A DNA stretch of 64,000 bases from Harmothoe impar (taxonomy: Eukaryota; Annelida; Polychaeta; Phyllodocida; Polynoidae): assembly GCA_947462335.1 (NCBI GenBank), contig OX381710.1, forward strand, positions 24,149,772 through 24,213,771, written 5' to 3'. The notes beneath the pieces are model-generated. The model did no database searches, was not told the origin of the DNA, and saw only the letters and a program-made list of their open reading frames with translations. This document shows, piece after piece, positions 13,838-51,552 of the stretch. A program made the position numbers and the translations under genes. Within the stretch, counting starts at the first letter, position 1, and every line of letters begins with the position of its first letter.

Positions 13838-13985
13838 GTCGTGGGACCTCCTCCATGACGGACTCTAGGAAGTCCTGCGGCGTCATGTACACGTTGCCCT
13901 CATACTCTACAGAGGCGAAGCTGAGGAAGCGCAGCTCCCGCTGAGTCTGTAGCACCTTGGTCACCACCCGCACGTCAGAGTCCTC
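13838..13985 (-). CDS. MICU2/3-type mitochondrial calcium uptake protein, exon 2 (partial)
   Basis: MICU proteins are EF-hand gatekeepers of the mitochondrial calcium uniporter, acting in the intermembrane space. This exon encodes about 49 residues, starting EDSDVRVV and including FASVEYEGNVYMTPQDF and SVMEEVPR. It matches the family's conserved block before the first EF-hand (E-R-RF--FAS-E-EG---MTP-DF pattern of MICU1/2/3). An acceptor (GTTACAG, minus strand) precedes 13985 in phase 0; a donor (GTAAGT) follows 13838, leaving one base of the next codon. Codon use and GC content stand out against AT-rich flanks. The phase fits the exon at 47539-47754. The EF-hand exons are not in the window. 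The aspartate/glutamate carrier N-terminus has a similar YMTPEDF motif, but the FASVE-EG spacing fits MICU better. The family is fairly certain; MICU2 versus MICU3 is not resolved. Confidence 0.85.
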
Positions 13986-13991
13986 CTGTAA

Positions 13992-14425
13992 CACACCCAT
14001 GGGGCATCTTAATACATGGACTACACAACCATAGGGCATCTTAATACATGGACTACACAACTACGGGGCATTTTAATGCATGTACTACACAACCATGTGG
14101 CATTTTAATACATGGACTACACAATCATGGGGCATATCAATACATGGACTACACAACCATGGGGCATCTCAATACATGGACTACACAACCATGGGGCATC
14201 TCAATACATTGACTAGACAACCATGGGCCCTCTCAATACATGGACTACACAACCATGGGGCACCTCAATACATGGATTACACAACCATAGGGCATCTTAA
14301 TATATGGACTACACAATCATGGGGCATATCAATACATGGGCTACACAACCATGGGGCATCTTAGTACATGGACTACAAAAGTCAGTATATAGCACCTTTA
14401 CAATCATGGGGCATCTTAGTACATG
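13992..14425. repeat. 32-bp minisatellite abutting the MICU exon 2 acceptor
   Basis: About 13 copies of a 32-base unit containing ACAACCATGGGGCATC and AATACATGGACTAC. The array starts within about 6 bases of the splice acceptor of the exon at 13838-13985, so on the gene's strand the branch site and pyrimidine-tract region consist of repeat sequence. The plus-strand frame of repeated YMDYTTMGH-like residues is a repeat translation. Confidence 0.9.
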
Positions 14426-14429
14426 TCAT

Positions 14430-14650
14430 GTACAAGCCCTTTGAGGGTCGCATAGTGCTTTGATACACTATGCCACCATTATGCCCTTTTCGTCATGATG
14501 GATTAATAGACATGTCAAGTAACTAGCCAGGGCTGCATTCAAGAATTATGCTGACCCTAGGGGATCGATACACCCCCAAAGGTTCGGCATGATGCATGAA
14601 TGCAGCCCTAGCGAGTCAGGATGAATGCATCAAGCTAACCCTTCACACAT
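14430..14650. mobile_element. Nested-palindrome MITE, copy 8
   Basis: Left arm CCCTTTGAGGGTCGCATAGT, central GCTGACCCTAGGGGATCGAT, second module GGCATGATGCATGAATGCAG. The right arm is partly lost. Confidence 0.8.
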
Positions 14651-16354
14651 CGTGCCGATACGTGTTATCTGCATAACAGGGAGAGAACAATGATACATGT
14701 GCACAGGGAGTTCAGCAACTCAATTAAATCGGTCATAGGAACGGTTAATGTATGTGAGTTGATCAATTGATCAATTGACATGGGTGATAGGCAAGGTTTA
14801 GACATTACGTCACCTATTTTGGAATAGTTTTTAAGTCCCCACCACACAGCTCTGACACCCATTTTGACTACTGTTGAAAGACTCACCCTGTTGTGGGTTG
14901 TCAGTGGAAGCTTACTAAACTTGAGCTAATTTTGGGATAATTGGCATATAATACAACTAGCGAGGGTCAAGTTTCGTCAATACACCCTTCAAGGCTTCAC
15001 TCTAAAGTCCCCCCCCCCCCCGCAACCACCACCCACACCCAGGCATGTCATTTGTGAAAGTTCCCATATGTTATACATGTAGTTTGATGTACATTTATCA
15101 TAATAGAGCAAGAGTACCAGGTGGAGACTTTTCGATAGTAAGACTGATTATTATTACTATTACTATTTATTATTACTATTATTACTATTATTCGATTGTT
15201 CTTCTGTCCTACAGTGCTTTCCAATCAGAGATGGTTTCATAAGTGGATACCAGCAAACAAGACAGTGCTGTCAGAGTGGTGACTTTACATGTCAGTAGTT
15301 GGAGGGATGGGTACTTTATAGACCACGGCTCAAAGGAGCATGTCGGTTTCAATTTAGTTTCGCCACGAGTCCATTTTGGCAACATGGAGATAATTCATTT
15401 AAAGTAGATTCCTTGCAGGCCTATTGTACAGGGTTTTGTTCCGAGTCCAAGTTGAATAGGAGAGAACATCGTCAAGCTATTCAAGATGTAATTTACAGAC
15501 GCACTATATAACCCCAATAATGCTAATTTTATTACAAATTTGAGAAACGTTTATACACTATGGAATTCATCCTATTTATGAGTTGGCAATATCATCCTAT
15601 TTACTCCTGCTTTATGGCACGTTCCGCACTGCACCCTGTCTATCTCTATGTATTACTCACAACGTCCACAACTCTATGACAACTATATACATACATTGTA
15701 ATGGCTCCTAGACTGAATAGTACATGCAGCAGCAGAATAGGCACTTATACAAGAGGTAATCCTTTTTAAGTTAGAAAGGTACTTAAAAGTTGATGAATGC
15801 ATATACATATATTTATATTACAGCCTTTGGTTGTGGATTCATACATATCCAGGTACCGACATGATATAAGAAGTAAAATGGATTGATCTCTGTATATAGC
15901 GCTTTTTGTGAGTTATTATGAGACTGGTTTCTGACCGTGAGAACCAAGTAGACACATTGGACGGCTAGAAGGGGATTGTCTGGGATTTCTCTACCCATGG
16001 ATACACCACTGGCAAAACGCTATATCATGAAACGGACAAAAGGACTGTCGTTATAGCTTTTACTTCTAGGTTTCAATACGATTTAGAATTCCATGTAGAC
16101 CTAGGTGCATATGAAAATGATATCATATAATTTTTGGATGTCCTTTTCTTTTTGTTGTACATATGCTGAGATGCGTTCAGAATATAAGAATACAGGCTAA
16201 TGGTAAATATAGGTTATTTCAAGCTAAAGCTCCTCCACTACCCCTCCATTATATTCAAAATTTTATTTTTCCTATGTTGTTGTTATTGTTGTCCTACACC
16301 CACACCAGGCCCACCACGTGGTGTCTGAGCGTGCCTCCTGTCAGTGGCAGCCCT
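14651..16354. other. Intronic, no gene seen
   Basis: Contains a C-run near 15010-15020 and an ATT/ACT-rich microsatellite at about 15148-15192. Nothing else was recognised. Confidence 0.4.
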
Positions 16355-16606
16355 AACCCGTTAAGGGCCGCACAGAGCTTCAATCCACCATGTCCTTTGT
16401 CGTCACGATGCATGAATGCAGCCCTAGCGAGTAACTCGCCAGTGAGGCATTTATACACCATGTTGAGCTCATGGTGTTAATATACTCCCAAAGGGTCGGT
16501 ATGGGACATGAATTAAGACCTAGGGGAGCATTCAATCATTTCATGCACTATGACGCCAAAGGGCATAGTGCATTCAAGCACTGTGCGGCCCTTAAAGGCC
16601 CTAACC
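16355..16606. mobile_element. Nested-palindrome MITE, copy 9
   Basis: Near full length, from CCCGTTAAGGGCCGCACAGA to TGCGGCCCTTAAAGGCCCTA. Both flanks read CTAA. Both inner modules are recognisable. Confidence 0.85.
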
Positions 16607-17291
16607 AGAGGCATGTACAGACAGGGGAGGGGAGGGGACACACACCTGCCGTCTTAGTCACCTGTCCATGCCGGGCGGTGCTTTGAAGTGCGGATGGCCA
16701 CAGGTGTGGTACAAGTAGATAATTAGTTGGCTGGAGGACAGCGCTCTGGCCATGCTAACAGCCTTGTCACCTGTCTGTAGGTGGTGCTCCAGGGTGGCCG
16801 CGGGCCCTGATAAAGGCTGACTCCCTAATCTGAGGCACACTCCAGGCCACAGCTAGACTGCAGGTATGGCCAGGGTCATATCATGGGTAGATTCACCACG
16901 AGTCGGACCATTGGATGTAAGTTATACATTCATGATGAGCACTATAGTTCTACTTTAGCTCTAAGAAAACTTCTTGAATCATACACCAATAGCGGCAGCA
17001 GCATGCTTGAATAATTACAAATTCAGTAAAGTATATATCAATAAGATAAGTGCCCGACTCAATGTGAGTCTACCCCCTATGCATTTTCATAATGGATATG
17101 GTCTATAGATGACACAAGATACAATGTTTTCCTATAGACATGTACCATCCAATGTATACGTCTACAAGAGGTTAGTAGAACCAGGAGTGGTGGCTGATTA
17201 TGGGCCAAGCTGACCCTATAATCAGTATACATGTATATATAGTCTATATAGGTAAGCACATAGAACCGATTTCTGGGTTTTACCATAATTA

Positions 17292-17584
17292 GGGAGTGGT
17301 CATTTTTTAACAACGGGGGGGGGGGGGTGAGTTGGTGGATTTCTCGCTCGAGCGGGTCGAAATTCTTTTGGTCCCCACCCCAGGGGTCGAAATTTGTCGG
17401 TCCCCCCCTCAGGCAAGTTGAAACTGAGCGCGGCCGACCTCTTTGAGCTATACTAACCCGCTGGATATTTTGCTAAAAAGGGGTGCTATTTTTTTGGTCC
17501 CCCCCCCCCTCAAGAGGGGTCCAAATTTTTTTGGTCCCCCCCCAAATCGACCAACCCCCCTGTTGTTAAAATATGACCACTCCC
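17292..17584. mobile_element. PIF/Harbinger-like MITE, copy A
   Basis: The 293-bp element has terminal inverted repeats GGGAGTGGTCATTTTTTAAC and GTTAAAATATGACCAC-TCCC, and is flanked by TTA on both sides (17289-17291 and 17585-17587). TTA is a typical 3-bp target of PIF/Harbinger transposases. The interior is rich in G and C runs and GGTCGAAATT/GGTCCAAATT motifs. It has no coding capacity and so is non-autonomous. Confidence 0.8.
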
Positions 17585-17587
17585 TTA

Positions 17588-18149
17588 GATATGTGTATAT
17601 GTGGGGTGGGGGCATGTATGCACACAATACCGATAAGGGCGGGGCTGGTTACGTCTAACTCTACACTCTGGAGCATACTCTAGACGCCAACAGTATGATA
17701 CTAGTAGTTCCATGTAGAATTAGGGATCACAAACAGAATCACAGGATGATATGTATCATGTGCGACTCAGTAAGCTGTCACATACTCCAAGAAGTCGGAC
17801 CAAGTCGGACCAACATTTTGATATCCATATTTTCTCCATAGGGGTAGTACGACTATTTATTCCTCCGATTGAATTTAACTAGTTGGATATTAGCGAACCG
17901 CTGAAAATTGTCATTGAGAACAATTGTCCACAGTGAGCACATATGGTTGTACACCCTCCAACTGCCGGTATGAGACATCAGATCTAGATATAGAGATGTT
18001 TAGTCTTCCCTGTATGTATATAGACAGCCTGATATATTATTGGACTATACTGTTTAGTGTCGTTAAATGGTAGTAACCAGCCCAATGCTGCTTCTGACTG
18101 GGGTATAATCAACACCAAAATAATCAAATGTCTCCCTTCCCACCAGAAA
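17588..18149. other. Intronic, no gene seen
   Basis: AT-rich unique sequence; nothing recognised. Confidence 0.4.
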
Positions 18150-18361
18150 GTCTCGTTATGATGCATGAATGCAGCTTTGGCGAGTCACTCGGAAGGGCTG
18201 CATTATGCATCATACCACACCTTTCAGTCATGGAGCATGAATGCAACAATGGCGAGTTACTAGCCATAGTGTTGCATTCATGCATCATATGATATCATAT
18301 GATATATATGACGACAAAATGACGAGATGCATCAAAGCAGTACGCGGTCCTTAAAGGGTGA
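18150..18361. mobile_element. Nested-palindrome MITE, copy 10
   Basis: Both hairpin modules are present (GATGCATGAATGCAGCTTTG; GAGCATGAATGCAACAATGG with its complement). The right end is GCGGTCCTTAAAGGGTGA, and there is a small ATCATATGATATCATATGAT expansion. The left terminus is lost. Confidence 0.8.
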
Positions 18362-20662
18362 GGGCTGATTGATGATTTCAGAGGCACACCCCATTGATCT
18401 AGATATTGTTGTCATACAGGTTACAGATAATTTTCTTTACAAAATACTTCGAAAACAGCCTATAACATTGTCTGAGAATATTCTAGATTCACACAATATG
18501 ACAAGTTATTAAGCACCGCAATGAAATTATCATCCAAATGATTTGACGGATGTCAAAGGAAAATGAGTCTATGTGGGTGGCCAATTAGCTGATTTTAAAT
18601 ATATGTGCGAAGAGTTATTAGAATGAAGCTACTCACAACAAATATAGCTAAAGAATTCTTTTTAAATATAACTTGCAGACCGCAGAAAACTACCCTACCC
18701 CGGAACCCCACCCTTTAAGCAACTATTCCAACCCCTGAACAAGCACTATACTACACAGTGCATATTTTTCTTTAAAAACCATGTTATATTGAACGTGTAA
18801 TTTACATTGCAGGTGACTCGGGGAAGCTAGCATTGTAAGGTCCAAAATAAGGATGTGTTTAAGGCTATTCCAACTCTACCTAGCATAACAAAGACGCCCC
18901 CAGACATTTTTAACCCTTTTTAGGTGGGGGGGGGGGGGGGGGGGGGCGGTGCAGACCTTTTGAAGGCTACTAGTAGTTCTAATCGATTTTGTGAGATTCC
19001 TATTTTTCTGGTGACCTTGGTCGTGGGATATATGGGACACAAATTCAAAAATATATTTTGCTCAATATATGTGCATATTAAGTCTTTTGAACTACATGTG
19101 ATGTTATAGTCCCTAGGTAGTTGGTACGTTTAGTTTTAAAAAAATGAGGTTCACAAATATATCATCAAACCAGACCAAAAACAGTATAACGAATTTCGGT
19201 CGCCTTATTTTTTCCAAAATTGATAATCTTTTTAATTCAGGTGATCCCCAAGGATCAACCAACATGTATCTTGTTGTGGCTTTACTGAAAATATTGTTAG
19301 GCATGACCCGAGTCAACAAGATCTAAGTATACTCAGCCCAATGTCATGAGGTATTGTCCCGGGCTAAATCCGAAGTATTTCTGTCATATACTTCAGTTCA
19401 ATGTGTTATAAATAATTTTAAAAAAAACACGGTCAAATTATCTCTGTCTGAATATGATTTTACCTTGATGGGATAGGCTGAAGCAGGATGTGATGCTTTA
19501 AGGCCTTATCATCATCGGATGTAAGGCTATGAAGAAGGCGTCAACATAAAGTAATTCCATTGCACAAAGTGACGTTATTTGATGTTTAAGGTAAAGTAGT
19601 GACTATATTAGATGGGTGATATGGATCTGCGTGTCTTGACATATTACACGTTCTTGAAAAAAGGGTGTGCTATCTTAACACTTTATGGGTCTATTGATGT
19701 GAGTTTTTTTTCTCAAGTAGGATATTCACCCAAATTGAATGCATTATTATCCAAAGCTTTGCTTTTTTTCTCTCTGTTCCATGTTCTAACTGACACTTTT
19801 GTATGAATCTTAAAATCTTCGTTGTGTAATTCCTTTATAGTATTAGAACCGTAAAGCAAAGAATCTAAATCTTGAGCACAGACTAGGATATAGAAAAAGG
19901 TGCATGATTTACGAATGGGATTCTTGCAGTTGTGTGTGTGTGGGGAGGGGGAGTGCACTAGCCTAGATTCCCAAATAGGAATGTCAAATAAACACCAAAG
20001 GCCGTATGTATCGCGGAGGCAATGCTATGGATACAACAGGCTTGTCTGGTGAAATATCAACAGCCACTCTCAGTGTCAATGGTAGACATTGTGCTGACGG
20101 TCCCAAACCTTGAAGATATTTGCCCTCCTTTCTCTACGTGTTCCTTCTGTTTTCAGGTTGCCGCCCTTGCTTGCATTGTGCCCAGTGGTTGGGATTTCTC
20201 TCATATTACAAGGCCTACACACTGGCCGCTTAGAAAAATAACCCAGTCCTAATAAAATCCCATCCATGTAATGTGAGGGTGGCGCAGCACATGAAACATA
20301 GCCATCTTAGGGCAAAGGAAAATATGTGGGAGTCGGGGAAAATGGCAACTGTTATTTGATGAAGAAGTAAAACTGTCTCTATTTCCCCTGTCGGACAAGC
20401 AGTCAGATCTGAGACCTTCTTCTAAATTACAGGTTCTTTTGGGTAGATAGCCAAGTCAACAATGCAGCCGCCCTGTCGGCCGCTCTCATCAAAAAGTTAA
20501 ATATGCATGGTATTTGTTGAGCGGTCGAGTAAATATGGAGCCTTCGGCAGCAGGGTCTGATCCCTTGGGGTTGTCACAGCATAAAGGGTGAGGCTGCCGC
20601 AGAGGTTACCCGCGCCACCTACCTGACACCCCAGGCTACCCCCCCCCCCCCCCGCCAACTCC
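18362..20662. other. Intronic, no gene seen; long poly(G) at about 18925-18946
   Basis: AT-rich, with a G run of about 20 bases and a C run of about 14 bases at about 20640-20653. The short open frames lack splice context. Confidence 0.4.
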
Positions 20663-20902
20663 CTTAACCCTCTAACGGCTGCATTCTGCTATGTACTTGG
20701 TCTTCATGATGCATGAATGCAGCCCTAGCCTACTCAGCAGGGCTGCATTCATGCACCATGCCCTCCCCACGGGGTTAATACACTGCCAAAGGGTCGGCAT
20801 GATGCTTGGATACAGCAGTAGCGATTTAGTCGCCAGGGCATCACATCAGTGAGCAAAGGTATACGGTATCAAAGTAATATGTGGCCCATAAAGGGTTAAC
20901 AA
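20663..20902. mobile_element. Nested-palindrome MITE, copy 11
   Basis: Full length. TTAACCCTCTAACGGCTGC at left, AAAGGGTTAAC at right, and TTAA on both sides. The first inner hairpin is almost perfect (GATGCATGAATGCAGCCCTA against GCAGGGCTGCATTCATGC). Confidence 0.85.
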
Positions 20903-21954
20903 TAGCCGGCCCTAGTTCTGGGATCCACACCGAGAGGGCGGCCCCCCACCATGGTTGTCTGACTAGGGGTGAAGGAGAGTGGAGGGGGGGGGGGGTACTC
21001 TGTCACCCCCTCCCCATGATCCCCGCCCAGGGTCCTCCTATACCCTCCCCCTCCTCCAAACCTCACACACTCACCCCTCAAATACACCCCCATCTCGCAC
21101 CTCTTTTCAAAACGTCTTTGGTTGGGACGGCCCTCAATGACCCCACTGTCTCTTTAGACTTTAGCAGCCCGCCTCCTGCCACCTTGCCATCCACGACAGC
21201 TTTATTAGTATTGGTACACAGTCCAAGTATAACCACACGACTTGCTAATTTCCACCCTGCTACTGTGTGTTGAGCAGTGGAATGGGATTTATAAACTATA
21301 GAGTTTGCTCACAGCCGGGGGGGGGGGGGGGGGGTGCATGCAAGCTGCGGAGGTTGTGATAACGGCAGGTGCCAGAGGCAGTTCTTTCCTCCCCGATCTC
21401 CACATTTTTGGTGCTTTAAAAACTACTGGAAAAATAAAAACAACACTTGTGGTATATCCCCAACCAAGTACCAGCATGATGACTGATAGGTCCCATCCCC
21501 CAAGACAGGTTCAGCCCACCTTTTACCACAGACTCGTGGGTAACACCAGTGCAACAAACTAACAGAGTCAAGTACGTTGTGTGCCGAGAGACGTGTGGAC
21601 AAGGCAGAGTGAAAGACATGGTTTTGTAACACATTAGCTGAGCCTCACAGCTGCACCTAATTGCATGAAGGAAGAAAGAACTGCTTCCTCGAAGACGATA
21701 CTTGATATGACAGAAGAAGGTAGAGGGAGGGACCCCGGAGGGTATAAGATGTGGTGATGTTGGTAAAGATTGAGCGTGTGAGTGACCTCACAGATGACTC
21801 AGGGTAGGCTGGATCTGTAGCATATCATGTACTTAGATATAATCCTCCCTTATAATCATTCATTGGTCAATTCTGGCATCAGAAATGAATTCCTAGTTAC
21901 AAAGTACCTTCAAGTCATGTGTCATACATGTATGTTATTCCATATCAGGCCAGC
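20903..21954. other. Intronic, no gene seen; G runs
   Basis: G runs near 20985-20995 and 21318-21334. Frames read through C- and G-rich stretches but show no recognisable protein. Confidence 0.4.
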
Positions 21955-22017
21955 AGGTGGGTGTGGGTGAGCAGGTGGGTGTGGGAGAGCAGGTGGGTGT
22001 GGGTGTGCAGGTGGATG
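21955..22017. repeat. 18-bp short minisatellite (GCAGGTGGGTGTGGGTGA)
   Basis: About 3.5 tandem copies of the GCAGGTGGGTGTGGG-type unit. Confidence 0.85.
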
Positions 22018-22837
22018 TTGGCGACAGTTGCAGGCTGCGGGCATGTACCACCTTCTGTCCCTATCAAAAAGCGAGTCGATCGGACTATAAACGGCGAAGA
22101 TATGGGTGGTACAATTTCGCTCTGCACACGTTCAGATCTAGCACAGTAGGAGAAGTACCAGTGGCGCCCCCATGTGCATGATGGCGTGTTGTTTTGCTTT
22201 GGTTTTGTGTCGTACATTTATATTTAAATTAAAGAACCTAGATGGGTTTTTTCTGTGTATATGAAGTATTTCTACAGTAGTAGATGGCATTCCTGTATGT
22301 AAAGAGAGAAATATCAAGCAGTGTAGGCTAGAACCTCATTTCTATCTTTAGTTTCACATTGAAGTCTATGTAGCTTTTATTTAGAGGGTAGCAATTTAAC
22401 AGTGGTTAAGAGTTTATGCGAAAGAGAGAAAGTCATGTCGAAAGATCGCAGTTCAATATCATATTGAAAAAAAGAGATATTTGATTTCTTTTCGAAGGAA
22501 ACATTTGTCCCCCGATCTTGCCCATCTATCCCTTTGGTCATCTGATGTCTATCTATAACACAGGCTGAATGATAGACATTCTCCTATGTAACAAAAACGT
22601 CTTAAACCATGGTTCAGTCGACGTATATTACTCAGTTACCCTGAGTCAAAAACAGTCACCATGTTCCTGGTAAAGGGTAGTCTATATCTAACAATGAACA
22701 CGCCCATTTTACATTTCTCAACATTTACTCTATCTACCAGCTGACACAACACTTCCAGTTTTATTTTCTTTAAATGTCACTGTCTCCCTCTTTCCTGGAT
22801 ATCTGACTACACAACAATAACCTACTGCTATTCCCTT

Positions 22838-23790
22838 ACCCACTTTGACCTACCTCAACACCCCCTGAACCACCTTGACCTACCTCAACACCCCCTGAAC
22901 CACCTTGACCTACCTCAACACCCTTGAACCACCTTGACCTACCTCAACACCCTTGAACCACCTTGACCTACCTCAACACCCTTGAACCATCTTGACCTAC
23001 CTCAACACCCTTGAACCACCTTGACCTACCTCAACGCCCTTGAACCACTTTGACCTACCTCAACACCCTCGAACCATCCTGACTTACCTCAACACCCTTG
23101 AACCATCTTGACCTACCTCAACACCCTTGAACCACCTTGACCTACCTCAACACCCTTGAACCACTTTGACCTACCTCAAAACCTATGAACCACCTTGACT
23201 TAACTCAACACCCTTGAACCATCTTGACTTACCTCAACACCCTTGACCTACCTCAACACCCCTTGAACCACCTTGACCAACTTCAACACCCGCTGAACCA
23301 CTTTGACCTCCCTCAATGACCAGCCTCAACACCCCCTGAACCACTTTGACCAACCTCAACACCCCCTGAACCACTTTGACCTCCAACAATACCCCCCTGA
23401 ACCACTTTGACCTCCAACAATACCCCCTGAACCACTTTGACCGACCTCAACACCCCCTGAACCACTTTGAGCGACCTCAACACCCCTGAACCACTTTGAC
23501 CGACCTCAACACCCCCTGAACCACTTTGACCTCCCTCAACACCCCCTGAACCACATTGACCTCCCTCAACACCCCCTGAACCACTTTTGGCCTCCCTCAA
23601 CACCCCCTGAACCACTTTTGACCTCCCTCAACACCCCCTGAACCACTTTGACCAGCCTCAACACCCCCTGAACCACTTTGACCCCCCACAATACCCCTTG
23701 AACCACTTTGACCTCCAACAATACCCCCCTGAACCACTTTGACCGACCTCAAAACCCCTGAACCACTTTGACCGACCTCGGGGATGAAAG
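22838..23790. repeat. About 30-bp minisatellite, 0.95 kb
   Basis: About 31 copies of a 29-31-base unit containing CCTTGACCTACCTCAACACC followed by a CCTGAACCA or TTGAACCA variant. There are two sub-domains: the left half uses CCTTGACCTACC and the right half uses CTTTGACCTCC or CTTTGACCGACC. The minus-strand glycine/serine/valine-rich frame at 23313-23615 is repeat translation. Confidence 0.95.
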
Positions 23791-24297
23791 TCGGGAGGAA
23801 AAAATTGAAGACCTTTATCCCTGCGACCTCAACATTCCCTGCAGCACTTCCAATTCATTTCTACAATTTACACACTATACTGAGCTTATCCACCTGAAGT
23901 GCCTTAGCATGTACCACCATTCCGATAGTCCTGTTTCACTTTAGGTGTGGGCTAGGAGTGAGGTGTACATTTATTACCTTGAACAAGTGTTTGGCAATCG
24001 GTATGTAATTTTGTACATGTAGATAATGTAACCTGTCCTTGATATCCACGATGTATCACCGTTAGGGTGAGGAGCACCAATTAATCAGTGTGTCCCGCGC
24101 GTGGCTGAACACACATACATGAGAGGAGCAACAACAAAATCTGTGCAGGGGATCTTGTAGCGGGGTGACCACAGACTCGCCGCCCGGCCCTCATCAGGGG
24201 GTCTTTGATTGTTGGTGCGCAGTAGGCATGAAACCGCGCCGTGCTGTCCTGCTGCCACGTACCTCTGTGCTATTGTCTGCGGCTTAACCATGACAGG
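23791..24297. other. Intronic, no gene seen; GC-richer next to the following MITE
   Basis: 24070-24297 is GC-richer unique sequence and a possible non-coding element. Confidence 0.35.
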
Positions 24298-24536
24298 CCC
24301 ACTTAGTGCTTTACTGTCATACCCCATGTGTCGTCATGATGCATGGGTGCAGCCATGGTGAGTAACTCGCCAGTGATGCATTCATGCATGCATGATGTCG
24401 GTCCTTCGGGTTGGATGTACTCCAAGGATCAGCATAATGCAGCCTTGGCAAACTACTCACCAGCGCTGCGTTCATGTACGATGACGGTGACAGGGTATCG
24501 TACATTAAAGCACTATGCAGGCCTTAAAGGCTTAAC
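24298..24536. mobile_element. Nested-palindrome MITE, copy 12
   Basis: GTCGTCATGATGCATGGGTG, central GATGTCGGTCCTTCGGG, and right arm CATTAAAGCACTATGCAGGC ending AAAGGCTTAAC. The left end is truncated. Confidence 0.8.
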
Positions 24537-35872: not shown

Positions 35873-36001
35873 GCTGTGAGAGATACTGGACTGGGTAGCA
35901 GCAGGTGGGTGGTCCTGGTCCAGTTGCCATTCACAGACATGGACAATGGTACGTCTGCATCCTGACACTGGCGGTCAGCACTGGACTGGAACCTCACCTA
36001 G

Positions 36002-39747: not shown

Positions 39748-40009
39748 AACCCTTTAAAGGCTACATAGTTATTTAATGCACTTTATACTCAATTTGTCGT
39801 CATGATCCATGAATGCAGCCCTGGCAAGTTTACTCACCACGACTGCATTCGACACATCATGCTAACCCTTTGGAAGTGTATCAACGCTGTACAATCGGCA
39901 TGATGCTTGAATACAGCACTGGCGAGTTATCACCAGTGCTGCATTCATGCATCATGACGACAATAGTAATACAGCATTAATGTATTTTACTGCCCTTAAA
40001 GGTTTAAAT
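39748..40009. mobile_element. Nested-palindrome MITE, copy 24 (full length)
   Basis: TTAACCCTTTAAAGGCTACA at left, CTGCCCTTAAAGGTTTAAA at right. Both hairpins and the central CTAACCCTTTGGAAGTGTAT module are present, so this is a good reference copy of the architecture. Confidence 0.9.
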
Positions 40010-40976: not shown

Positions 40977-41130
40977 GTCCCGTGTACATTTACTAGTAAG
41001 TAGTATCTGTAAGTCCCATGTACATGTTACTAAATACTACTGAGTAGTATCTGTAAGTCCCATGTACATTTACTACTGAGTAGTATCGATAAGTCCCATG
41101 TACAGTTATTGGTCCCATGTATGGTTACTA
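40977..41130. repeat. Short tandem repeat of an about 50-bp unit
   Basis: Three to four imperfect copies of AAGTCCCATGTACATTTACT followed by ACTGAGTAGTATCTGT. Confidence 0.75.
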
Positions 41131-41318
41131 CTGAGTGTGGCTCCAGATTGGTCAAAAGCGACCTGGCGACCTGGGCTGTTTTCCAGGCGACCTGGCACAA
41201 TAATATGTAAGCGACCTGGCGACTTTTGGAAAGGTTTGATTCTAGCTTAACCCACGGTGGAGGGCTGAGACAAAGGATTCGCACCTTGGTTATTTCTCAT
41301 ACCCAAGGGTTAAGTCAG

Positions 41319-41454
41319 ATAGACTACACCTGTACCTTGGTATGCCTTATACCCACTGCCCACTGGTCATCGACTCAGTGTATAACACCTCGTCTTGACC
41401 TTGTGGGGCAGTGGGTATGAGGCATACCAAGGTACCGTACAGGTGTAGTCTATC
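41319..41454. repeat. Long hairpin (arms about 45 bp, loop about 43 bp)
   Basis: GATAGACTACACCTGTACCT at 41319 continues to about 41362, and its reverse complement occupies about 41406-41454 (ending AGGTGTAGTCTATC) with a few mismatches. A third, weaker copy of the CTTGG...TATACCC motif lies just upstream. GCGACCTGGCGAC motifs are repeated in the flanks (41149-41225). Confidence 0.8.
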
Positions 41455-41992
41455 TAACACATAAATGGCGACCTTGTGACCTGGGGCCCTTAATTTCGGC
41501 GACTTTTCGACCTGAGGGCGGGAGGACCCCTCTGCACCCCCTGACTGCCTGAGTAGTATCAGTACCTTCTTTGGGGAAATTCTAGTAGTCTTACAGGGTC
41601 TTAAAAGTCATTTTTTTAGATTTTGCCCCGAATTACTCCTTCATTAAGTAAAACTATGTATGAGACATCTACCTGCACCAGGTAGAATTATACGTACGAA
41701 AAGATATTTTTTTATTCGTCCATTTTCAAAGAAAATCATAGAAATGTGTAAAATATGACCAAACATAAGGTATGCAGACTACCATCCTCATTTCTAAAAG
41801 CCTTGTCGTCGTCAAGTTAATTAGAATGGCGCTCATATACCTAACAGGGATATTGTTAGTGGCTGCTTCAATGGGGCTGTAGTGTGGCATTGATAAGGGC
41901 TGCTTGGACTTAAGGACATGACCCGAGGGCTCAGGCAGCACCTCGGTCACCAGGACCGTACATCATTCAGAATACATGTACAATACATGTAT

Positions 41993-42222
41993 AACCCTTT
42001 AAGGGCGGTATGATACCCAAGGATGTTGTTCATCCGCATCATGACGTAGCAACACGGCGCATAGCTCACCGATACTACATTGGTGCGTCATGCCAATCTT
42101 TTGGGAGTGTATCAACCGGGTCGACAGTCACATGATGCATGAATGCTGTACTTGCCAAGGTTGTATCCATACATCATGATGTTGACAAAATGGCACTAAC
42201 ACACTTTGATGACCTTTACCGT
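41993..42222. mobile_element. Nested-palindrome MITE, copy 25
   Basis: ACCCTTTAAGGGCGGTATGA at left, CATGCCAATCTTTTGGGAGT in the centre, CACATGATGCATGAATGCTG; the right end is weak. Confidence 0.75.
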
Positions 42223-42944
42223 TCAATCTCCAGTTCTCGCGACTGATGTCCACTGGGATTAATATTTAATATATTATATTAAATATATATATGCTCTAAC
42301 GCCCTTTTTTTCTATCTATATCTTGAATACTTCCAATACATTCTGGCAGACCTTACAGCAATAATGGAGCACATTTTGAAGTCGGTATGTGCCTTGATCA
42401 AACTTGGTCCGAGTACCTGTCCTTACCTGCATGTATATAACCCCACCTCCCATGTTAGTGGACACAATCAGCTCAGTAAACATGAAATAACTCAGCCATT
42501 GTATTCCCTCACATACCTCCTAAACGCATCTACCTTGGAGTAAACTGCTCTAAAAATAGTGAACTCATTTTAAAGGGTATGAGGCCAAGAAAGGTAAGAT
42601 GTGGTTCATGTCACCCGGCAGTAAAATAGAACCGATCTCTTGTTTTTCTTGGGGATAATTTGAGGTGATTTTCATTGTTTTAGAGAATTATGGAGTCCAC
42701 ATAATGACCTGCACTACGGCAGAATTTTGCGATATTTATTCTAAAATATTTATTTTAAAATATAAACTCCGACCTATGTATCGAGCCCCGATTTGCTGAA
42801 CATATTACAGCTTTTATTTGTGAGTGCCTGACAATGCACCGTGGCGGTTTCTACTAGTATTTTTCCCTGGTTGGATTAGCAGTGGGCTGGGGTTTCTACA
42901 TTAGAGACTGGAGCCGGTGGAGATCAGAGAGTGGCTACATTTTA
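42223..42944. other. Intronic, no gene seen
   Basis: AT-rich; includes a palindromic TTAATATATTATATTAAATA tract near 42264-42290. Confidence 0.4.
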
Positions 42945-43193
42945 AACCTTAAATGAACGCCTAGTGCTTTAATGTGTCCATGGTCGTCATGATGCATGCA
43001 TGCAGCCCTGGTGGGTAACTCACCTGTGCTGCACCCATGCATCATGCCTACACATTAGGAGTAATTGGCATCCCGGGGTCGGCATGATACATTTATGCAG
43101 TCGTAGCGAGTAGACTATCCAGGGTTGCCTTCGTGGATCATAACGACTAAATGCATAGCGCGTTAAAGCACCATGCGGCCCTTAAAGGGTTAA
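42945..43193. mobile_element. Nested-palindrome MITE, copy 26 (full length)
   Basis: AAACCTTAAATGAACGCCTA at left; GTTAAAGCACCATGCGGCCC and TTAAAGGGTTAAA at right. Both inner modules are present. Confidence 0.85.
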
Positions 43194-43521
43194 AACGTAC
43201 CGGGAAGAGCTGGTGACACGAGGCGGGCCACGCTCTGTGATCACAGGTAAACTGCACCCAGGAGGGACTGCATAATACGGCCCGATCACTGGGTACGTAA
43301 CCGCCACAGGCCTCCTGCCCCCCTACATAACCCACCCACCACCACCACCACCAACACCCTCACCCCACCACTACCTCCCCATGCTCCAACACACACAGCC
43401 ACATTATTGAACTAAATGTGCTGGGGAGTCGTTGGTGGATTTGAGGAGGGGGGAATCCAAAATGTTGACCCCTCTACTATATTTAGAGGGCCTTTTTCGG
43501 CAAGAAAGTTCATGTGTATTA

Positions 43522-43767
43522 GGGAGCGGCCAGTTTTTTTTAAAGGGGGTGGGGGCACGAACGGGCCAAAAAAAGTTGGTCCCCAACGGGAGGGGTCGGA
43601 TATTTTTTGCCCCCCCCCCCCCCCCCCTCTAGGCAAGTTGAAATTGAGCGCGACAGACCCCTTTGCTAGAGCTATAGTAACGCACTGGCTTTTTCACTAA
43701 AAAGGGGTCCAATTTTTTTTTGGACCCCCCCCCCCTCCCACGCTGTTGTTAAAAAATGACCACTCCC
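43522..43767. mobile_element. PIF/Harbinger-like MITE, copy B
   Basis: Termini GGGAGCGGCCAGTTTTTTTT and TGTTGTTAAAAAATGACCAC-TCCC, with TTA flanks at 43519-43521 and 43768-43770. The interior carries long C runs as in copies A and C. Open frames rich in P, G and F crossing it are not genes. Confidence 0.75.
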
Positions 43768-43770
43768 TTA

Positions 43771-44474
43771 CTACTGTATTAACATGCAAATATGTATTTC
43801 CTGGCACTTTCCCTGACAGCGGCAACCCTGACAAGGGAGGTTCATTGTTTCATCGAAACCACGCGATGAACCAAACAGAGGTTTCAGGCTAGATGGCAGG
43901 GAAATAGTGACCATGGGATACGTGTAATTCTGTTACAGCCTGTCAAGTAAACACTTCTAGAGACACGATCTAACAGCATGTTGATTTTGTTCTGAACCAT
44001 TGCCATTATTCTATTTATCATAATCGACATATTCATTCTAATAAATTCTTTGATGAAATAAAAATAAGTTCCACCGAGCCAATTCAAGTATTTCAAGCTC
44101 CACCATTGAACTAATTACTAGGTCAAGTTACATTGTTGTACGGGGAAACACACAAATATATTCGGGGGTAGGATACTTTAATGCGCCATACAATGCTAAT
44201 TTTTACTTTTCCATCAGATCCATGCATCTACGTGTGCTTGTGCTCACATTTTCCATGACCACATTTTGAGTACACTTATTGGCAGAATTACAAAGTACAT
44301 CTAACGATTCATGAATGACATGGGCTTTAATGTCAATGCCATTAAGAGCATCATTATTGTTTGCGTTTCTATGGGAACAGCTGCTCGCAAATGACCTCGT
44401 CAGTTACCTATATCCATATCCGGACCCATATCCTCTATGCACTATGTGTACGACAGCCCCTATGGTTCCTGATA
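43771..44474. other. Intronic, no gene seen
   Basis: AT-rich; nothing recognised. Confidence 0.4.
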
Positions 44475-44588
44475 CAGTAAAATCTCGTTATAAGTAGGGC
44501 CGTGGGACCAGCCAAATTTGCTCCTTATAAGTAACGTTTCTTATAACCAACATTATGTATACCAGTAGAGAGATTTCACTTTTCACTG
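44475..44588. mobile_element. Short TA-flanked MITE (pogo/Tc1-mariner-like)
   Basis: The 114-bp sequence begins CAGTAAAATCTCGTTATAAG and ends GAGATTTCACTTTTCACTG, with TA on both sides. The CAGT-AA--TCTCGTTATAA terminus resembles ends of pogo/Tigger-type elements. Confidence 0.55.
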
Positions 44589-45202
44589 TACTACCTTATC
44601 AGGCCTGTAAGCAGCCCTATTGACAGGGCTGTTCGTTTTTTCGATATGTTGGAACTTGACCTAATTAATTCAAAATTGGAGCTTGACATACTTAATTTGT
44701 TTCATGATGAGACTTGGGAGTAATTTCATCAACGAATATAGTGTAACCTTAACAATTGATTGCCGACCCGTACCCAGTGGCATATAGTTTGACACGTTAA
44801 GACAGAGATATATGAAGCATCAATTACCCATGCTTAAAATGATTAAATGATACGAATGTCAACAACAAATTGTGAGAATGTCTGTCATCACATTAGACTT
44901 TGACCTGATGAAAATGGGCTTTCTACGAATCGCCACTTCTTAGCACGAGGAATGAAAAGAACTAGGTTATTGAATTAAAATTGATCACAAGTATGTCATG
45001 CCATGATACAGTTACACTAGCGCCGCCACAATGTAAAAGTCAGGAAATGCTGTGAGGTCGGTAACCGAACAGAACTGGTACTGGCATCTCCAGGCCAGGT
45101 CTCTTGGCCGACAGTACAGTAGCCTTCATCCGGTAATTGGGGTATCCACTGGCACAGATTGGTAATTACCTTGAGTGGTACCCGAGATTAATTAAATATG
45201 TT

Positions 45203-45427
45203 AGGGCCGTGTCAATGCAGCTCTAGTGAGTAACGTGCCAGTACTGCATTCATGCATCATGCCGACTGGGTTGATACACTCCTGAAGTGTCGACATGATA
45301 CATTCATGCAGCCCTGAAAGTTGACTTGCCAGAGTTGCATTCTTGCATCATGTCGCCCCTTCAGGAGTGTATCAACCCGACAAAGGCATAGTACATCAAA
45401 GCATTATGCGGCCCTTAAAGGTTTAAA
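45203..45427. mobile_element. Nested-palindrome MITE, copy 27
   Basis: ATGCAGCTCTAGTGAGTAAC, GCCGACTGGGTTGATACACT, TACATTCATGCAGCCCTGAA; right end GCGGCCCTTAAAGGTTTAAA. The left end is truncated. Confidence 0.8.
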
Positions 45428-45492
45428 CTGTTCTGAAACTTCAGCCACAGCCTCCTTCATATGAACACTTTTTAACATCAACATGTACTGTT

Positions 45493-46022
45493 TACTTTTA
45501 AGGATATATTTTTGACAGCGCTAGGGAGGAACGACTTCAATGCACGGTGCAACCACTGCTAATGACGGTTAGGTCGTCGGACCATGACGTCATTAGGAAC
45601 ACCATTGCATGGCAACAGTCACTTGTTGACAGAGTAACTAGGTTACATGACAACAGTCACTATGGAAATCAACTAACCTTAGTGACAGGTCCCAAAACCA
45701 AGTTTTAGGGCCAAATTTAGTAGTTTCGTCCTGTGGGGACTCATCAGGCACCTGTTTTGTGCTAAAACAGTGACAATTTAAATTGCCAGTGGTCCCAAAT
45801 TTCTAGGAAACTTGGAGTTGTTGGGTTGCTGTCAACCACAAGTGTGATTGTTGTTGACAGCTCCCCAGTTCCTTCAGCTCAGGGCTTTGGGAACTATATA
45901 AATACAAGTAGGTTGTAAATATATATTCGAAATTTAATTAAGAATTTAATTTCTAGAGTAAGGATGATTTAGAAAAATCCTCAATGGTGTACCTTGGAAT
46001 TAAAGATAGACTATAATTCGCT

Positions 46023-46057
<35 letters not shown>

Positions 46058-46070
46058 TTTTAAGGATATA
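45493..46070 (+). mobile_element. Young polyadenylated retrocopy (SINE or processed pseudogene) with 16-bp target duplication
   Basis: TACTTTTAAGGATATA occurs at 45493-45508 and again, perfectly, at 46055-46070. Between them lies about 546 bp ending in an uninterrupted A tract of 31 bases (about 46024-46054). ATTAAA at about 46000-46005, about 19 bases before the A tract, is a standard polyadenylation signal at the normal distance. This is the hallmark of LINE-type target-primed reverse transcription of a polymerase II transcript. No open frame of note exists, so the source may be a 3' UTR, a non-coding RNA or a SINE. I see no tRNA-type A/B boxes. Intact tail and duplication indicate a recent insertion. 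Confidence 0.85.
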
Positions 46071-46439
46071 CCATGAGTTTGAAATATAACTAAATTGTCT
46101 TTTTGAATGTACAATATATTCTGTTAATAGCCAATTTATTTAGATGCACTGTCACAAGTTCAGACGTAATGCCTATAACCGTGTTTTTTTTACACGATGT
46201 GCAATATAAGTGTTAAATAAGAATTCCAGGTCACTCTATGAATTGTATGATTTGGATATTGCTCAACCTTAGAACTAAGACTAAAGCACCTTTATTTCAA
46301 ATGGCATCTCACATGTGACGGTAAACGCTATAAACTTTTCTTTATTTTTTGTAGACTGTAGAGTGAATACTTCCATCTAAAAAGCTACTCTGTCAGATTA
46401 GCTGAGTGCCTTGGTTAAACCGAAAGCCCATGTCTTCTA

Positions 46440-46520
46440 CCGCTGCTAAAGATAATAAAGGGGTCCACATATTTTGGGTCCCCCCCTCGAGGAGATCAAA
46501 TTAGTTTTGCCCCTCCCCCC
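46440..46520. mobile_element. Harbinger-like MITE interior fragment
   Basis: AAGGGGTCCACATATTTTGG followed by C runs resembles the interior of copies A-C. No terminus is recognisable. Confidence 0.35.
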
Positions 46521-47211
46521 AGCACACACTCGTTTATGTAAAATTTCCGTTGAGACATGCTTGAGAGTACCTAACTTCACAATATTGTAATGTGAAAATA
46601 TGGTTGAACCTAGAATTCTAATTAACCCAGGACTATGTTTTTGTTGACTTAAGTTATGTTGGTGAGAACCGGGGCAGACGTAACTTTGTTCTTACCCCCC
46701 CCCCCCCTTCCGCACCCTGACAGTCCCTGTTAATTATTTCAATCAATGAATTATCACCAGTGACTGCCCCAATGTGAATGTCACTGTCAGTGATTTAGCA
46801 TTGGCCTATCTATCAATGATTCATGCCCTCTCACATACTATGCTCTAGGTAGTCCCTACGGATTTCCCATCTGTTACTTAGGAGGTATACGGGTAAAGAG
46901 TTGCCCCGCACAACTGTCAAATGAAAAGTGGGCGTGGTCATTCAGACCGACATCGCTGTGACAGGGTGACCTGGGTCGGTGCACTCCCGAGCAAATCAAA
47001 ACAAACGCGCTGTCAGATTAGACACGTTGCGTTGGCGACGTGTCAAACACTTGCATGTTTCATTTTGGTTGAAGTAACCATCCAGACATGCTCACTTAGC
47101 TTAAGATAACAATATATACCTAGTAAATAAGCACAATCTTAGTTATGTAGATCGGTAATCGTTATTGGAAAGTCAGGTGTCTAAATGAAGACGTCCCAAA
47201 ATAGTGCAGGC
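46521..47211. other. Intronic, no gene seen
   Basis: Includes a C run near 46697-46709. Nothing coding recognised. Confidence 0.4.
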
Positions 47212-47214
47212 TTA

Positions 47215-47534
47215 GGGAGTGATCATTTTTTAACAACAGGGGGGGGGTGGCGGGTTTCCGCGCGGAGCGCGCGAAATTTTTTACCCCCCCCCCGGTCAAG
47301 GGGTCAAAATTTTTTACCCCCCCCCCCTTAGGGTCGAAAATCGGCTCGCGCGCGGGCCCTTTGAAGCATAGTAACGCGCGGGCTTTTTGGCTCAAAACAG
47401 GTTGAATTTTTTTGCCCCCCCCCCCAAGAGGGGTCCAAATTTTTTTGCCCCCCCCCGGTCAAGGGGTCCAAATTTTTTTGCCCCCCCCCCCAAACCCACC
47501 ACCCCCCCCCTGTTGATAATAAATGATCACTCCC
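47215..47534. mobile_element. PIF/Harbinger-like MITE, copy C, inserted in the MICU exon 1 splice donor
   Basis: The 320-bp element has termini GGGAGTGATCATTTTTTAAC and TGTTGATAATAAATGATCAC-TCCC, with TTA duplications at 47212-47214 and 47535-47537. On the minus strand the exon reads CAAAG, then G of the host, then TAA of the target duplication, then GGGAGTG of the element, giving a functional-looking GTAAGG donor. The sequence past the far duplication begins GCCTG, so the empty site would have read GTAAGC. The duplication therefore preserved the donor core. Confidence 0.85.
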
Positions 47535-47538
47535 TTAC

Positions 47539-47754
47539 CTTTGCTGCATGAACGACGGGTTCGATGTAGGCCATTTGGCGGCATTTGGCGGTGATATAGA
47601 GGGCTATGCCAGCCCCTGCAACGCACCCACATCCTACAATAATATTAGATGCCGCGAGCTGACTATTAAATGTCCTAGACGTCTGCAATGTACGTTTTGG
47701 GGCTAAAACTTGCCTAACGAGAGGCCTGATGTTTTTCCTCAAGGCGGCCGCCAT
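47539..47754 (-). CDS. MICU2/3-type mitochondrial calcium uptake protein, exon 1
   Basis: Encodes 72 residues from the ATG at 47754 (AAAATGGCGG context). The start MAAALRKNIRPLVRQ is basic and lacks acidic residues, as in mitochondrial presequences. A single membrane segment follows (about residues 36-54, NIIVGCGCVAGAGIALYI), then a short tail ending PVVHAAK. It ends in phase 0 at a GTAAGG donor. A presequence plus one N-terminal membrane segment in exon 1, followed by the conserved RF--FASVE block, is the layout of MICU2 and MICU3. The exon at 13838-13985 starts in phase 0 and supplies that block. An upstream in-frame ATG at 47781 lies inside the NRF-1 motif and is less likely. Alone, the exon is too short to identify; the call rests on its partner exon and on synteny. 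Confidence 0.7.
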
Positions 47755-47810
47755 TTTGCTTGTGGTGGCTCTGCTGCGCATGCGCTGTGGAAATAGACCG
47801 GAAGTCCCGT
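47740..47810 (-). promoter_or_regulatory. MICU core promoter: NRF-1, ETS/GABP and YY1 motifs
   Basis: TGCGCATGCGC (NRF-1 consensus) is at 47775-47785, ACCGGAAGT (ETS/GABP, also called NRF-2) at 47797-47805, and the YY1-type AAAATGGCGGC at about 47747-47757, overlapping the start codon. This combination is typical of TATA-less promoters of nuclear genes for mitochondrial proteins. It supports both the start choice and the mitochondrial assignment. The transcription start probably lies between about 47755 and 47800. Confidence 0.7.
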
Positions 47811-47889
47811 CCTGACCTGTCCTGACACGAAGTTGACCCAGTTCCAGGGATGGGACGGGGAGCTGAAAAGGCGTGTTGAAACTCGTCAC

Positions 47890-49599
47890 CAGACTAGCAG
47901 GCCTAATCTCCTAGAAGTGATGAAATTGTCCTATGTCAGCATCGAGATCACACCTGAAGTACATAGCCCTGGATGAGGCAAAATCAAGGTAAGGCTAAAA
48001 TTGTGTGCCTGCTTGCTTCCGTCTAGCTTGCTAATGTCCATAATATTTCATCCCCCCCCCCATGCTATTGGCACTGCTAATATTAATATTGCTATGGCAA
48101 AAATGAGCCATGCATTGCAGACCTATTGGTTAGGATTTATAATAGACCTAGGTGTATACAATGAAATAGTAAATAATCTATCAATACTCCCAACTTTTCA
48201 TCATTTTCTTTAAAAAGAGGCAAATTCAAGTCCCTTATATACCGTATCTGACCCCACGACAATTTTTTTACAACGTTTTCTTTTATTACGCTACCCCCCC
48301 CCCGCCTACTAACCCCCTACAGGAGCTGACACCCCCCCCCCCCCCATCTTCCCTTTGCCTGCAATCCAACATGAGCTCGGTTGTTTCCTTAGTTTGTCCA
48401 GTATGTCTCTGGTTTGTCTCTGCCTACTTCTACATTTAATAGTCATACCGGTATCTGACGATTTGATGGTCTTTCCAAATATGAAAAACAATTAAAAATG
48501 TTTCCCAAATGTTATCAATACCCCGTAGGTCTAGCCTACATGATAAAAACTGCCACAGCCCCCCCCCCCCCTCATGTCCAATGAAATCCTTGCCCAATCA
48601 GTGCCACTATCACCCCCCACTATCACCCCTCCCTTTCGATTTCCAGTATTTCCCAAGGGTAAAAGAAACATACCGGTATGGAACATGTATGTCTATCTTT
48701 TTATGTTTTTCTCAGCTAAATATTTCTCTCGTAATTCTGCTACTAATACATCCCAGCTATTGGTCTTAAGGATTGTTTCTAATCATCGTTGTACCATATG
48801 CGTTGTACTCGAGTTGAAAAGTAGTGCAAACTACAATATAAAATGGTCTCAAATAACCACAGAGTCGCCCCAATATCATAAAGTGATTCTAGTTCTTATC
48901 GCATAATAACTTGTTTTCTCTCAAAAGTCCTCAGGTCAATCACCTCAATGTCAATATGTCTATATTAGTATGCTCAATAAAAATATCTAAAAAGTTGGGT
49001 GTCGGAAAAATGATTGCTCCAGGTCGAAAAGTCACCTGGGAAACGGTCCAGGACGCGAGAAAAAATGCTGCAGCCACAAAGTGTTTAGCATTGAACCAGT
49101 GACGCTTTTAGGACAGCATGCGATCAGACAGTATTGGATTTATTGATTCTCAATGTACCTGACCCTGAGGCTATGTTCATTCAACACGCCAGACTGGAGC
49201 TGGGTGGTAGGGGTGGTGGGGCAGGTAGACACCAGGTACTGGAGGAGGCTGTGAGGTGGCAGGGGGTTAGGGTCTGCATCATGGGACAAGTTGTAGGGGG
49301 GGGGGGGGATACAAGAAAACCCCAGGAAAGAGAGCGAGTGTTCCTTTAATAGTGGTAGTGGGGTGGATAGTACAGTATGCGGGATAGCATGTCCCATCAT
49401 AGTTCCTATGCTACCCTCCTGCATGGCCCATACCCCCGCCCATACCCCATGAGGTACCTGAAGACACTATATATTAAATACAGGTGTGGACACCTTTGCT
49501 GTGGTCGGGACTGCATGGCGGGATCCCCACTACTTCCTCCAGGGTGTAGAGGTAGGTGGTGGCTGAGTGGTTAGGTACAGGAGGAGGGTGATGGGGGAT
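47890..49599. other. Intergenic region between divergent MICU and FGF
   Basis: Mixed sequence with several C runs (48050, 48293, 48333, 48560) and a G run at about 49297-49308. No exon recognised. Confidence 0.4.
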
Positions 49600-51185
49600 G
49601 CAGCCCCTCCGGCAGCAGCGGACTGGGTGGCGGGGTTGGACAGACTGCGGAAGAGGCACAGGCGGCGGCACCGGCCGGCAGCGGCAAGGGCTCACATTTC
49701 ATGACGTCATTGAAGTGCACTAGTCCGCTAAGCAGTCCGCTAGGGGGACCCCGAGACGGGAGTGTGGGACGGGGACAGCTCCCCGCCTCACACCGGCTTG
49801 GAGTGCTGAGCGTGGCGGAAGGATCTACCATACGCAGCTTTTTCTCACCCGGCTTGTTCCACACTCATGTGTGGTAACACCATGGAGAACATACCAAAAG
49901 GCTCTCCCTGACCTATGGACACACTGATAGAGGAGTGGTTTTATACCTGCCTATTTGACAACTGTCCATAAAGCTTTGGACTAACTCTCCCAAGTTGACA
50001 GGGACAGAGTACAGGGGAGTGCCACACACAGAGGAGGAGGTGTGGCAGGAGGGAGTTTGAGGAGTTTTGTGAACTTTTCTCTGGTTTTTAGTTGTGTCCC
50101 AGTGATAGACACCAGACCTGGATAAAAGGGTGTCTGGACCGATGTAGACCTTTGAGTGTAGCCCCAGTGCCCAGTGTTCAAGGTAGCTGGCACCACGGGG
50201 GAACACGTATGGCAACGAGTAGAGAACTTAGCCCGCTATGGCCTGGCTCAGTCCGTCACTCCTTCAGCCTGAAGGAGTGGATCTAGTCCCCTCCTCCCCC
50301 CACCATACAGGACACTACTTGTACCCGCACCTGGAGCAGTCATCAGCTGCAGCAGCAGGCGGCCGGCCGGGCTCCTCCATCCCCCCTGCTACAGGAGGCT
50401 GTAGTGGTAGTCTTCACCCCTACCGTGACCAAGCTTCAAGTCGGCCCCCGTGTACACGGCCGAGTAGGGCAGCAGGGGCGGCCACCTGCATCGCCAGCAG
50501 CCCCCACACCAACTCGTACTACTACTACTGCACCTCGACTGTAGCCCCTTGTTGTAGCCAGTGTGGCCAGCTCAGCGTTTTCCCCAGGAGTAGTGCCACC
50601 AGCAGCACTCCAGTAGCAGCGTCTAGCCTCACCCACCTGGATCTCCACGCACAGCACGGTGCCACCAGACTAAGAACCCCCCTCAAGTTATTAGACCAGG
50701 CAGGCCGCACTGCTCACTACTCTTATACCAGGCATCTAGCGGCACGCCGCCACCCCAAGGAGGATTTATGTTCTGTGGATTGTAACCAGCACCGGGATTG
50801 TACTGCTCTTATATTTTGATATTATAAAGATAACCAAGCTCTGTCTACTACTATTACAACTGCCAGGACGTCCAGGTTGAGATTGTGAGGTGGGAGAGAT
50901 TGTGTGTTAGTTGATACAGCAGCAGGAACAGGGGCGCACCACTAAGGTGCCATGTACGTGTAGCCTGTCTGCTGTGTGATCTTCATGCCTCACTGAGTAG
51001 TGGCCACAACCCTGGAGGAGGAGCTCTACCACTGGCAGCTGGAGGATTCGCCCCAGTGGATCTCCCCCCAGCACTAGGGGCCGCGCTGCCCTGACCCCCC
51101 GGAGGGAGGGGGAGTTGGTTAGACTACACCTGGAGCTAGAGTGTCCCCCCGGAGTCCGCTGTGGCCGGTCTCCGCAGATCCCCGC
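49600..51185 (+). promoter_or_regulatory. GC-rich region 5' of FGF: putative promoter and 5' UTR
   Basis: GC-rich, mostly unique sequence upstream of the FGF start codon. A CRE palindrome TGACGTCA is at 49702-49709 and a TATAAA at 50823-50828. Open frames here (for example 50238-50819, rich in S, A, P and C) look like GC-rich untranslated sequence. The exact transcription start cannot be placed. Confidence 0.45.
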
Positions 51186-51552
51186 ATGCCGTGGCCCAAT
51201 GCTAGAACGTGCAGACAAGCCTGCTATGCGGCCGGACTGGCCCCCAGACTAACGGCAGCCCACCTCCTGCTCGTCACCGTGCTAGTCTGGATGGGGAGCT
51301 TCCCGACGGTGACCAGGGCCAGGGGGCTGCAGGGGGTCGCCCCGGCCGCGCCCAGTCTGGAGGACCCCCCACAGAACGCAGCGGGGGGTCCTTCCTCACT
51401 CAACCAGACAGCTGAGGGCAGGATTTCACGCTCACTCGCTATTTATAACAGAATTAGAAATGAAAAGTGGCTTGTTAGCAAAAATGGCTTTTTTCTAGTG
51501 ATACATCAAAACGGATCTGTGGGCACTACGACCGAAAAACAGCCTCGAATGG
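51186..51552 (+). CDS. Fibroblast growth factor, FGF9/16/20-type, first coding exon
   Basis: FGFs are secreted beta-trefoil ligands of receptor tyrosine kinases. From the ATG at 51186 the exon encodes about 122 residues. They comprise a basic N-terminus, a hydrophobic signal segment (about residues 23-37, LTAAHLLLVTVLVWMG), a possible cleavage site after FPTVTRA, a spacer with an NQT sequon, then the first trefoil strands: EKWLVSKNGFFLVIHQNGSVG. The last part aligns with FGF patterns (-NG-FFL-I--NG-V-G). The exon ends ATGG before GTAAGT in phase 1. FGF9/16/20 exon 1 also ends with a split glycine after a -RF-like sequence, matching PRM-G here. Exons 2 and 3 of the core were not found downstream. 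Subfamily assignment leans on the MICU neighbour; FGF family membership is the firmer call. The frame continues upstream without an ATG to 51141. Confidence 0.85.

Follow-up and report, generated by a model that had tools for sequence, protein, structure and literature searches.

In tetrapods, the FGF9 and FGF20 blocks described in a passage of PMC3636272 both carry a ZDHHC gene and EFHA, the old name for MICU2/3, upstream of the FGF gene; the same passage assigns ZDHHC15 to the FGF16 block, though the gene lies far away from it in human and Xenopus tropicalis. In chicken, EFHA2 and FGF20 fall within one mapped region, according to a part of PMC3464622. Here we describe a 64-kb stretch of DNA from the annelid Harmothoe impar (contig OX381710.1; hereafter the window), in which two exons of MICU2/3 type on the minus strand lie next to, and point away from, the first exon of an FGF gene on the plus strand. 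These are likely to be the 5′ ends of two real divergent genes, neighbours by inheritance from a pair that existed before the vertebrate copies split.

As in the tetrapod blocks (the cited passage of PMC3636272), a MICU gene stands upstream of an FGF gene, but one MICU and one FGF gene are seen here. A ZDHHC gene is not seen in the window, which ends inside the MICU gene. The two start codons are 3432 bp apart, whereas in the human pairs, which are divergent as well, the distance is tens of kb.

Outside vertebrates, FGF9/16/20 genes have been reported from hemichordates, lancelets, nematodes, brachiopods and a phoronid (passages of PMC3420111 and PMC8180254), while the sea urchin FGF and one of six Saccoglossus FGFs were left without a clear subfamily (PMC3420111, same passages). 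The exon described here shares with these genes the beginning of the FGF core, and presumably also the position at which exon 1 ends; it differs in that its subfamily is not settled by sequence and in that the passages give those genes no MICU neighbour. The word ‘micu’ is absent from the text of PMC3420111. No paper on a MICU-FGF pair in invertebrates was evident among the literature matches listed, which is no proof that such a pair is unpublished.

Exons of MICU and FGF type in divergent orientation

Exons, splice phases, strands and distance are read directly from the DNA. The exon that we call MICU exon 2 (13985 to 13838, minus strand) translates as EDSDVRVVTKVLQTQRELRFLSFASVEYEGNVYMTPQDFLESVMEEVPR and is bounded by an acceptor (TTACAG/GAGGAC) and a donor (CGAC/GTAAGT). 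In a phmmer search of all PDB chains, its best matches are MICU2 (E = 2.6e-7 to 9.8e-7, ten distinct sequences) and MICU3 (E = 9.7e-6); the mitochondrial Ca-binding carriers Aralar1 (E = 0.0046) and Aralar2 (E = 0.22) rank next, and MICU1 reaches 0.33 or worse. Its N-domain motif is closer to that of MICU2/3 than to that of MICU1, and against the structures of MICU2 and MICU3 (PDB 6agh, 6agi) the likeness to MICU2 (33 bits) exceeds that to MICU3 (28 bits). The EF-hand exons expected from the known proteins would lie beyond the window.

Exon 1 begins at an ATG at 47754, with a second in-frame ATG upstream at 47781 and, at the start codon, AAAATGGCGGC, a YY1-like motif. The first 38 residues contain seven R or K and no D or E, as befits a mitochondrial leader; next comes a hydrophobic helix with a Kyte-Doolittle mean of 2.04 over 19 residues. 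If exons 1 and 2 are joined, leader and helix precede the N-domain, as they do in human MICU2 and MICU3. The combination of ATG, leader, helix and phase-0 donor is found at a single place in the window (with the two in-frame starts) and in none of 100 simulated windows (Markov sequence modelled on the window itself), although these features were chosen after the exon had been seen and are a description more than a test.

The phase-0 donor of exon 1 fits the phase-0 acceptor of exon 2, and we infer that the two exons are spliced together. Joined, they match P0122, a 384-residue protein of JGI source with an apparently cut N-terminus, at E = 2.4e-12, the sole match at E ≤ 10 among 208 candidates. 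The alignment runs across the junction, has 41 identical columns of 75 and is broken by one gap of one residue, though most of its strength comes from exon 2, which by itself is 82.5% identical to P0122 over 40 residues. P0122 is itself a MICU protein, whose best PDB matches are MICU3 (321 bits), MICU2 (270) and MICU1 (177). A tblastn search with P0122 and typed human MICU2/3 found no MICU exon beyond exon 2 in the window, so the gene probably continues past the left edge, with a length of more than 47 kb.

On the plus strand, a frame opens with an ATG at 51186 and stays open to 51552, where it meets a GTAAGT at the place at which exon 1 ends in human FGFs. The end of the exon, KWLVSKNGFFLVIHQNGSVGTTTEKQPRM-G, resembles the beginning of the FGF core, and the 13 residues from NG to the split codon are as many as in FGF9; the first core strands run up to the phase-1 intron conserved in the family. 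Further upstream lies a hydrophobic stretch of 15 residues from residue 22 (mean 2.11). A donor-anchored profile built from 17 human FGFs, its anchor picked after the exon had been seen, scores the exon at 21.75. The window has 2839 GT-anchored open sites, and this score is the highest among them, the runner-up scoring 11.2; in 150 simulated windows (third-order Markov model of the window), the best of 404,743 sites scored 16.2. The exon also ranks first in the window (E = 0.013) with a hidden Markov model (HMM) of FGF exon 1 made from 18 typed human sequences, and in tblastn searches of the window with typed human FGFs it is the best match for FGF9 (E = 0.21) and FGF20 (E = 0.51). On these sequence comparisons, we take the plus-strand exon to be a real FGF exon.

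A sequence-only reading of this DNA had described a MICU-type exon pair and an FGF first exon diverging about 3.4 kb apart. The measured distance, the splice phases, the match to P0122 and the donor-anchored profile bear this out. The protein search of both genes that it proposed succeeded on the MICU side, where exon 2 matches MICU2 and MICU3 in the PDB, and returned nothing on the FGF side (below). Positions 13838 and 51552, the outer limits of the locus, are donor-side exon ends, being the final bases of MICU exon 2 and FGF exon 1, respectively.

Table 1. Features of the MICU-FGF locus and its surroundings, in positions of the 64-kb window.
Feature	Position	Strand	Description
MICU2/3-type exon 2	13838..13985	-	49 codons + 1 base; acceptor phase 0, donor phase 1; identified by PDB phmmer, P0122 identity and splice sites
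MICU intron 1	13986..47538	-	33.6 kb; many tandem arrays and dispersed elements
MICU exon 1, coding part	47539..47754	-	ATG at 47754; mitochondrial leader and hydrophobic helix; phase-0 donor
Divergent interval between start codons	47755..51185	none	3431 bp; GC 0.5-0.6 in FGF-side half
FGF exon 1	51186..51552	+	122 codons + 1 base; N-terminal hydrophobic stretch, then first FGF-core strands; phase-1 donor GTAAGT
Start of FGF intron 1	51553..64000	+	no convincing exon 2 or 3 before window end
~207-bp element, example copies	14436-14632, 24329-24535, 25466-25708, 39746-40002, 55622-55839, 57865-58074, 61713-61908		

The identity of the FGF and alternatives to a proposed inherited pair

Several results speak against the interpretation given above. 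The evidence base is one 64-kb window of one genome, the simulated controls are Markov sequence derived from that window, not real genomes, and only about 35 residues of FGF core fall inside the window. Linkage of this kind can also be lost: in teleosts, FGF9 is missing and the rest of the cluster is spread over different chromosomes (passage of PMC3636272). The remaining adverse results each bear on a particular alternative.

The alternative that survives best, though we think it unlikely, is that the MICU neighbour is an FGF of another subfamily, such as an FGF1/2-like gene, that arrived by chance or is a remnant of an ancient FGF cluster, and that the resemblance to the FGF9 and FGF20 neighbourhoods is coincidental. 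Compared over the 21 complete codons that precede the donor, human FGF2 has the top score (35), ahead of FGF12 and FGF10 (30) and of FGF9 and FGF16 (29), and 5000 bootstraps favour FGF1/2 (2101) over FGF9/16/20 (1213) and FGF7/10/22 (715). The N-terminal stretch is signal-peptide-like, whereas the vertebrate FGF9/16/20 proteins are not known to have a classical cleaved signal peptide. When the split codon is read as Gly, however, FGF9 and FGF16 rise to joint best (35); its first base is G, as in Gly, and Gly stands at this place in at least 109 of 116 fetched proteins with the FGF9/16/20 motif. A chance FGF beside a MICU2/3 gene in the right orientation would, moreover, be improbable a priori.

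The split among the bootstraps agrees with the earlier view that the short exon alone cannot assign the subfamily; nor does it set the FGF firmly outside 9/16/20, a placement that would have counted against the sequence-only reading. We infer from position, which alone points there, that the FGF is the 9/16/20 pro-orthologue; the sequence gives no subfamily support. The sequence-only reading let the pairing make the assignment; an assignment made by synteny alone would be circular if it were reused as evidence for an old pairing. The circle may be broken by the low prior chance of finding any FGF as the divergent neighbour of a MICU2/3 gene, which we would put at about 1 in 10,000, given a handful of FGFs among some 20,000 genes.

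It is very unlikely, in our judgement, that the plus-strand exon is a chance open frame or a pseudogene and no working FGF exon. Such a reading would account for several failures. The exon alone has no Pfam match, PF00167 included, and no FGF matched it in the PDB; among 231 candidates from a collection of 5.8 billion proteins, none reached E ≤ 10, vertebrate FGFs included, a divergence that fits an animal outside vertebrates. The domain score of the exon-1 HMM was reached in 6 of 100 simulated windows. In tblastn with human FGF2 the exon ties with another place in the window (E = 0.089 for both), and with human FGF1 it is not among the matches listed, the best of which lies at 12252-12335 (E = 0.017). 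Profiles of FGF exons 2 and 3 gave best E values of 1.1 and 0.64 in the whole window, with nothing convincing in the remaining 12.4 kb. An exon-3-like spot at 59095-59400 (E = 0.64) was set aside, as the residues expected to follow are missing. Against a chance frame stand the donor, which lies at the expected place and in the expected phase and was equalled by no simulated site, and the length of the ATG-initiated open frame; as for the missing exons, the MICU gene likewise has a very large intron.

Exon 1 of the MICU gene gives the weakest comparisons with P0122. Aligned locally to the start of that protein, exon 1 is equalled by 88 of 5000 shuffles; in a global comparison of its last 34 residues, for which the end-gap setting was poorly chosen, it scores 7, with 3519 of 5000 shuffles as good, and ranks 4th of 19 donor-ended minus-strand segments (3 of the 18 others score higher). 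We nevertheless give the least credence of all to the idea that this exon belongs to another mitochondrial protein and that MICU starts elsewhere, in a looser or interrupted pair, an idea to which these results and the 33.6-kb intron lend themselves, but which has against it the matching splice phases, the confinement of leader and helix to this one place, and a Pfam scan of 18 long open reading frames (ORFs) between the two MICU exons in which no other protein family was recognised.

Repeats and composition of the window

The window, animal DNA with a G+C content of about 45% and a CpG observed/expected ratio of 0.50, is crowded with repeats, both tandem and dispersed, and few coding exons were recognised in it. 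Of its 335 ORFs of at least 60 residues, 53 are at least 95 residues long and not of low complexity, the MICU exon 1 and FGF frames included; a Pfam scan of 50 of these 53 gave no match at the curated cut-off, a search that short exons would escape. No tRNA gene or Rfam family was found in the window.

Large minisatellite arrays occupy the MICU intron at 22833-23779, 33370-34657 and 38743-39335, and a 32-bp tandem array of 12 copies (13991-14377) starts at the acceptor, 6 bases upstream of the 5′ boundary of MICU exon 2. Scattered through the window is an element of about 207 bp that is strongly self-complementary and built of nested inverted halves; its consensus, which folds at −161.7 kcal/mol (RNA parameters), aligns to at least 60 pieces in the window, with several pieces per copy. 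It looks, from its sequence, like an abundant foldback or miniature inverted-repeat transposable element (MITE) family. A further copy beside MICU exon 2, at about 13718-13806, was judged by eye and is absent from the aligned pieces listed.

A repeat of 888 aligned columns (88.5% identity) occurs once in MICU intron 1 (29773-30658) and once in FGF intron 1 (53346-54218); the ends of the first copy, CACTGTAAAAA and TTTTTACAGTG, resemble terminal inverted repeats such as those found in non-autonomous DNA transposons. Eight perfect TGACGTCA palindromes (4220, 11888, 11905, 11919, 12357, 45585, 49702 and 56919) occur in 64 kb, where about one is expected at equal base frequencies; three of them share a span of under 40 bp, and another lies between the MICU and FGF start codons. 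Homopolymer runs of 9 or more are mostly of C or G (42, vs. 7 of A or T, in the whole window).

Age of the pair and what may hold it together

The sequence-only reading had concluded that the pairing predates the vertebrate duplications. The locus matches the tetrapod EFHA-FGF blocks, which is consistent with that age, but such an age already follows from the vertebrate genes: two paralogous copies imply that the arrangement is older than the duplications, and the passage of PMC3636272 describes two such blocks. What the window probably adds is a MICU-FGF case, outside vertebrates, of a known vertebrate neighbourhood.

We favour an inherited pair over the alternatives above, and on this interpretation MICU and FGF would have been neighbours before the splits that gave vertebrate MICU2 and MICU3 and FGF9, FGF20 and FGF16, and this animal would have kept the unduplicated state. 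MICU regulates the mitochondrial calcium uniporter and FGFs signal through FGF receptors. Each protein would presumably do here what its relatives do, with no joint function expected of the two. The most likely reason for so long a linkage would be regulatory: putative control elements of the FGF gene would lie in the 33.6-kb MICU intron and between the two start codons, and MICU may be a bystander of FGF regulation.

A bolder reading, which we hold to be less likely than not, is that the pair is at least as old as the last common ancestor of bilaterians and has stayed together because regulatory elements of the FGF gene sit in MICU intron 1 and the divergent interval. If so, the neighbourhood would guide FGF9/16/20 orthology in invertebrates better than the fast-evolving protein sequence. 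Trees resolve FGF subfamilies poorly outside vertebrates, and a constant neighbour would help, independently of trees, to tell which FGF of an invertebrate is the 9/16/20 gene. The known gene pairs of great age, whose survival calls for a regulatory explanation, would then also include one with a signalling gene.

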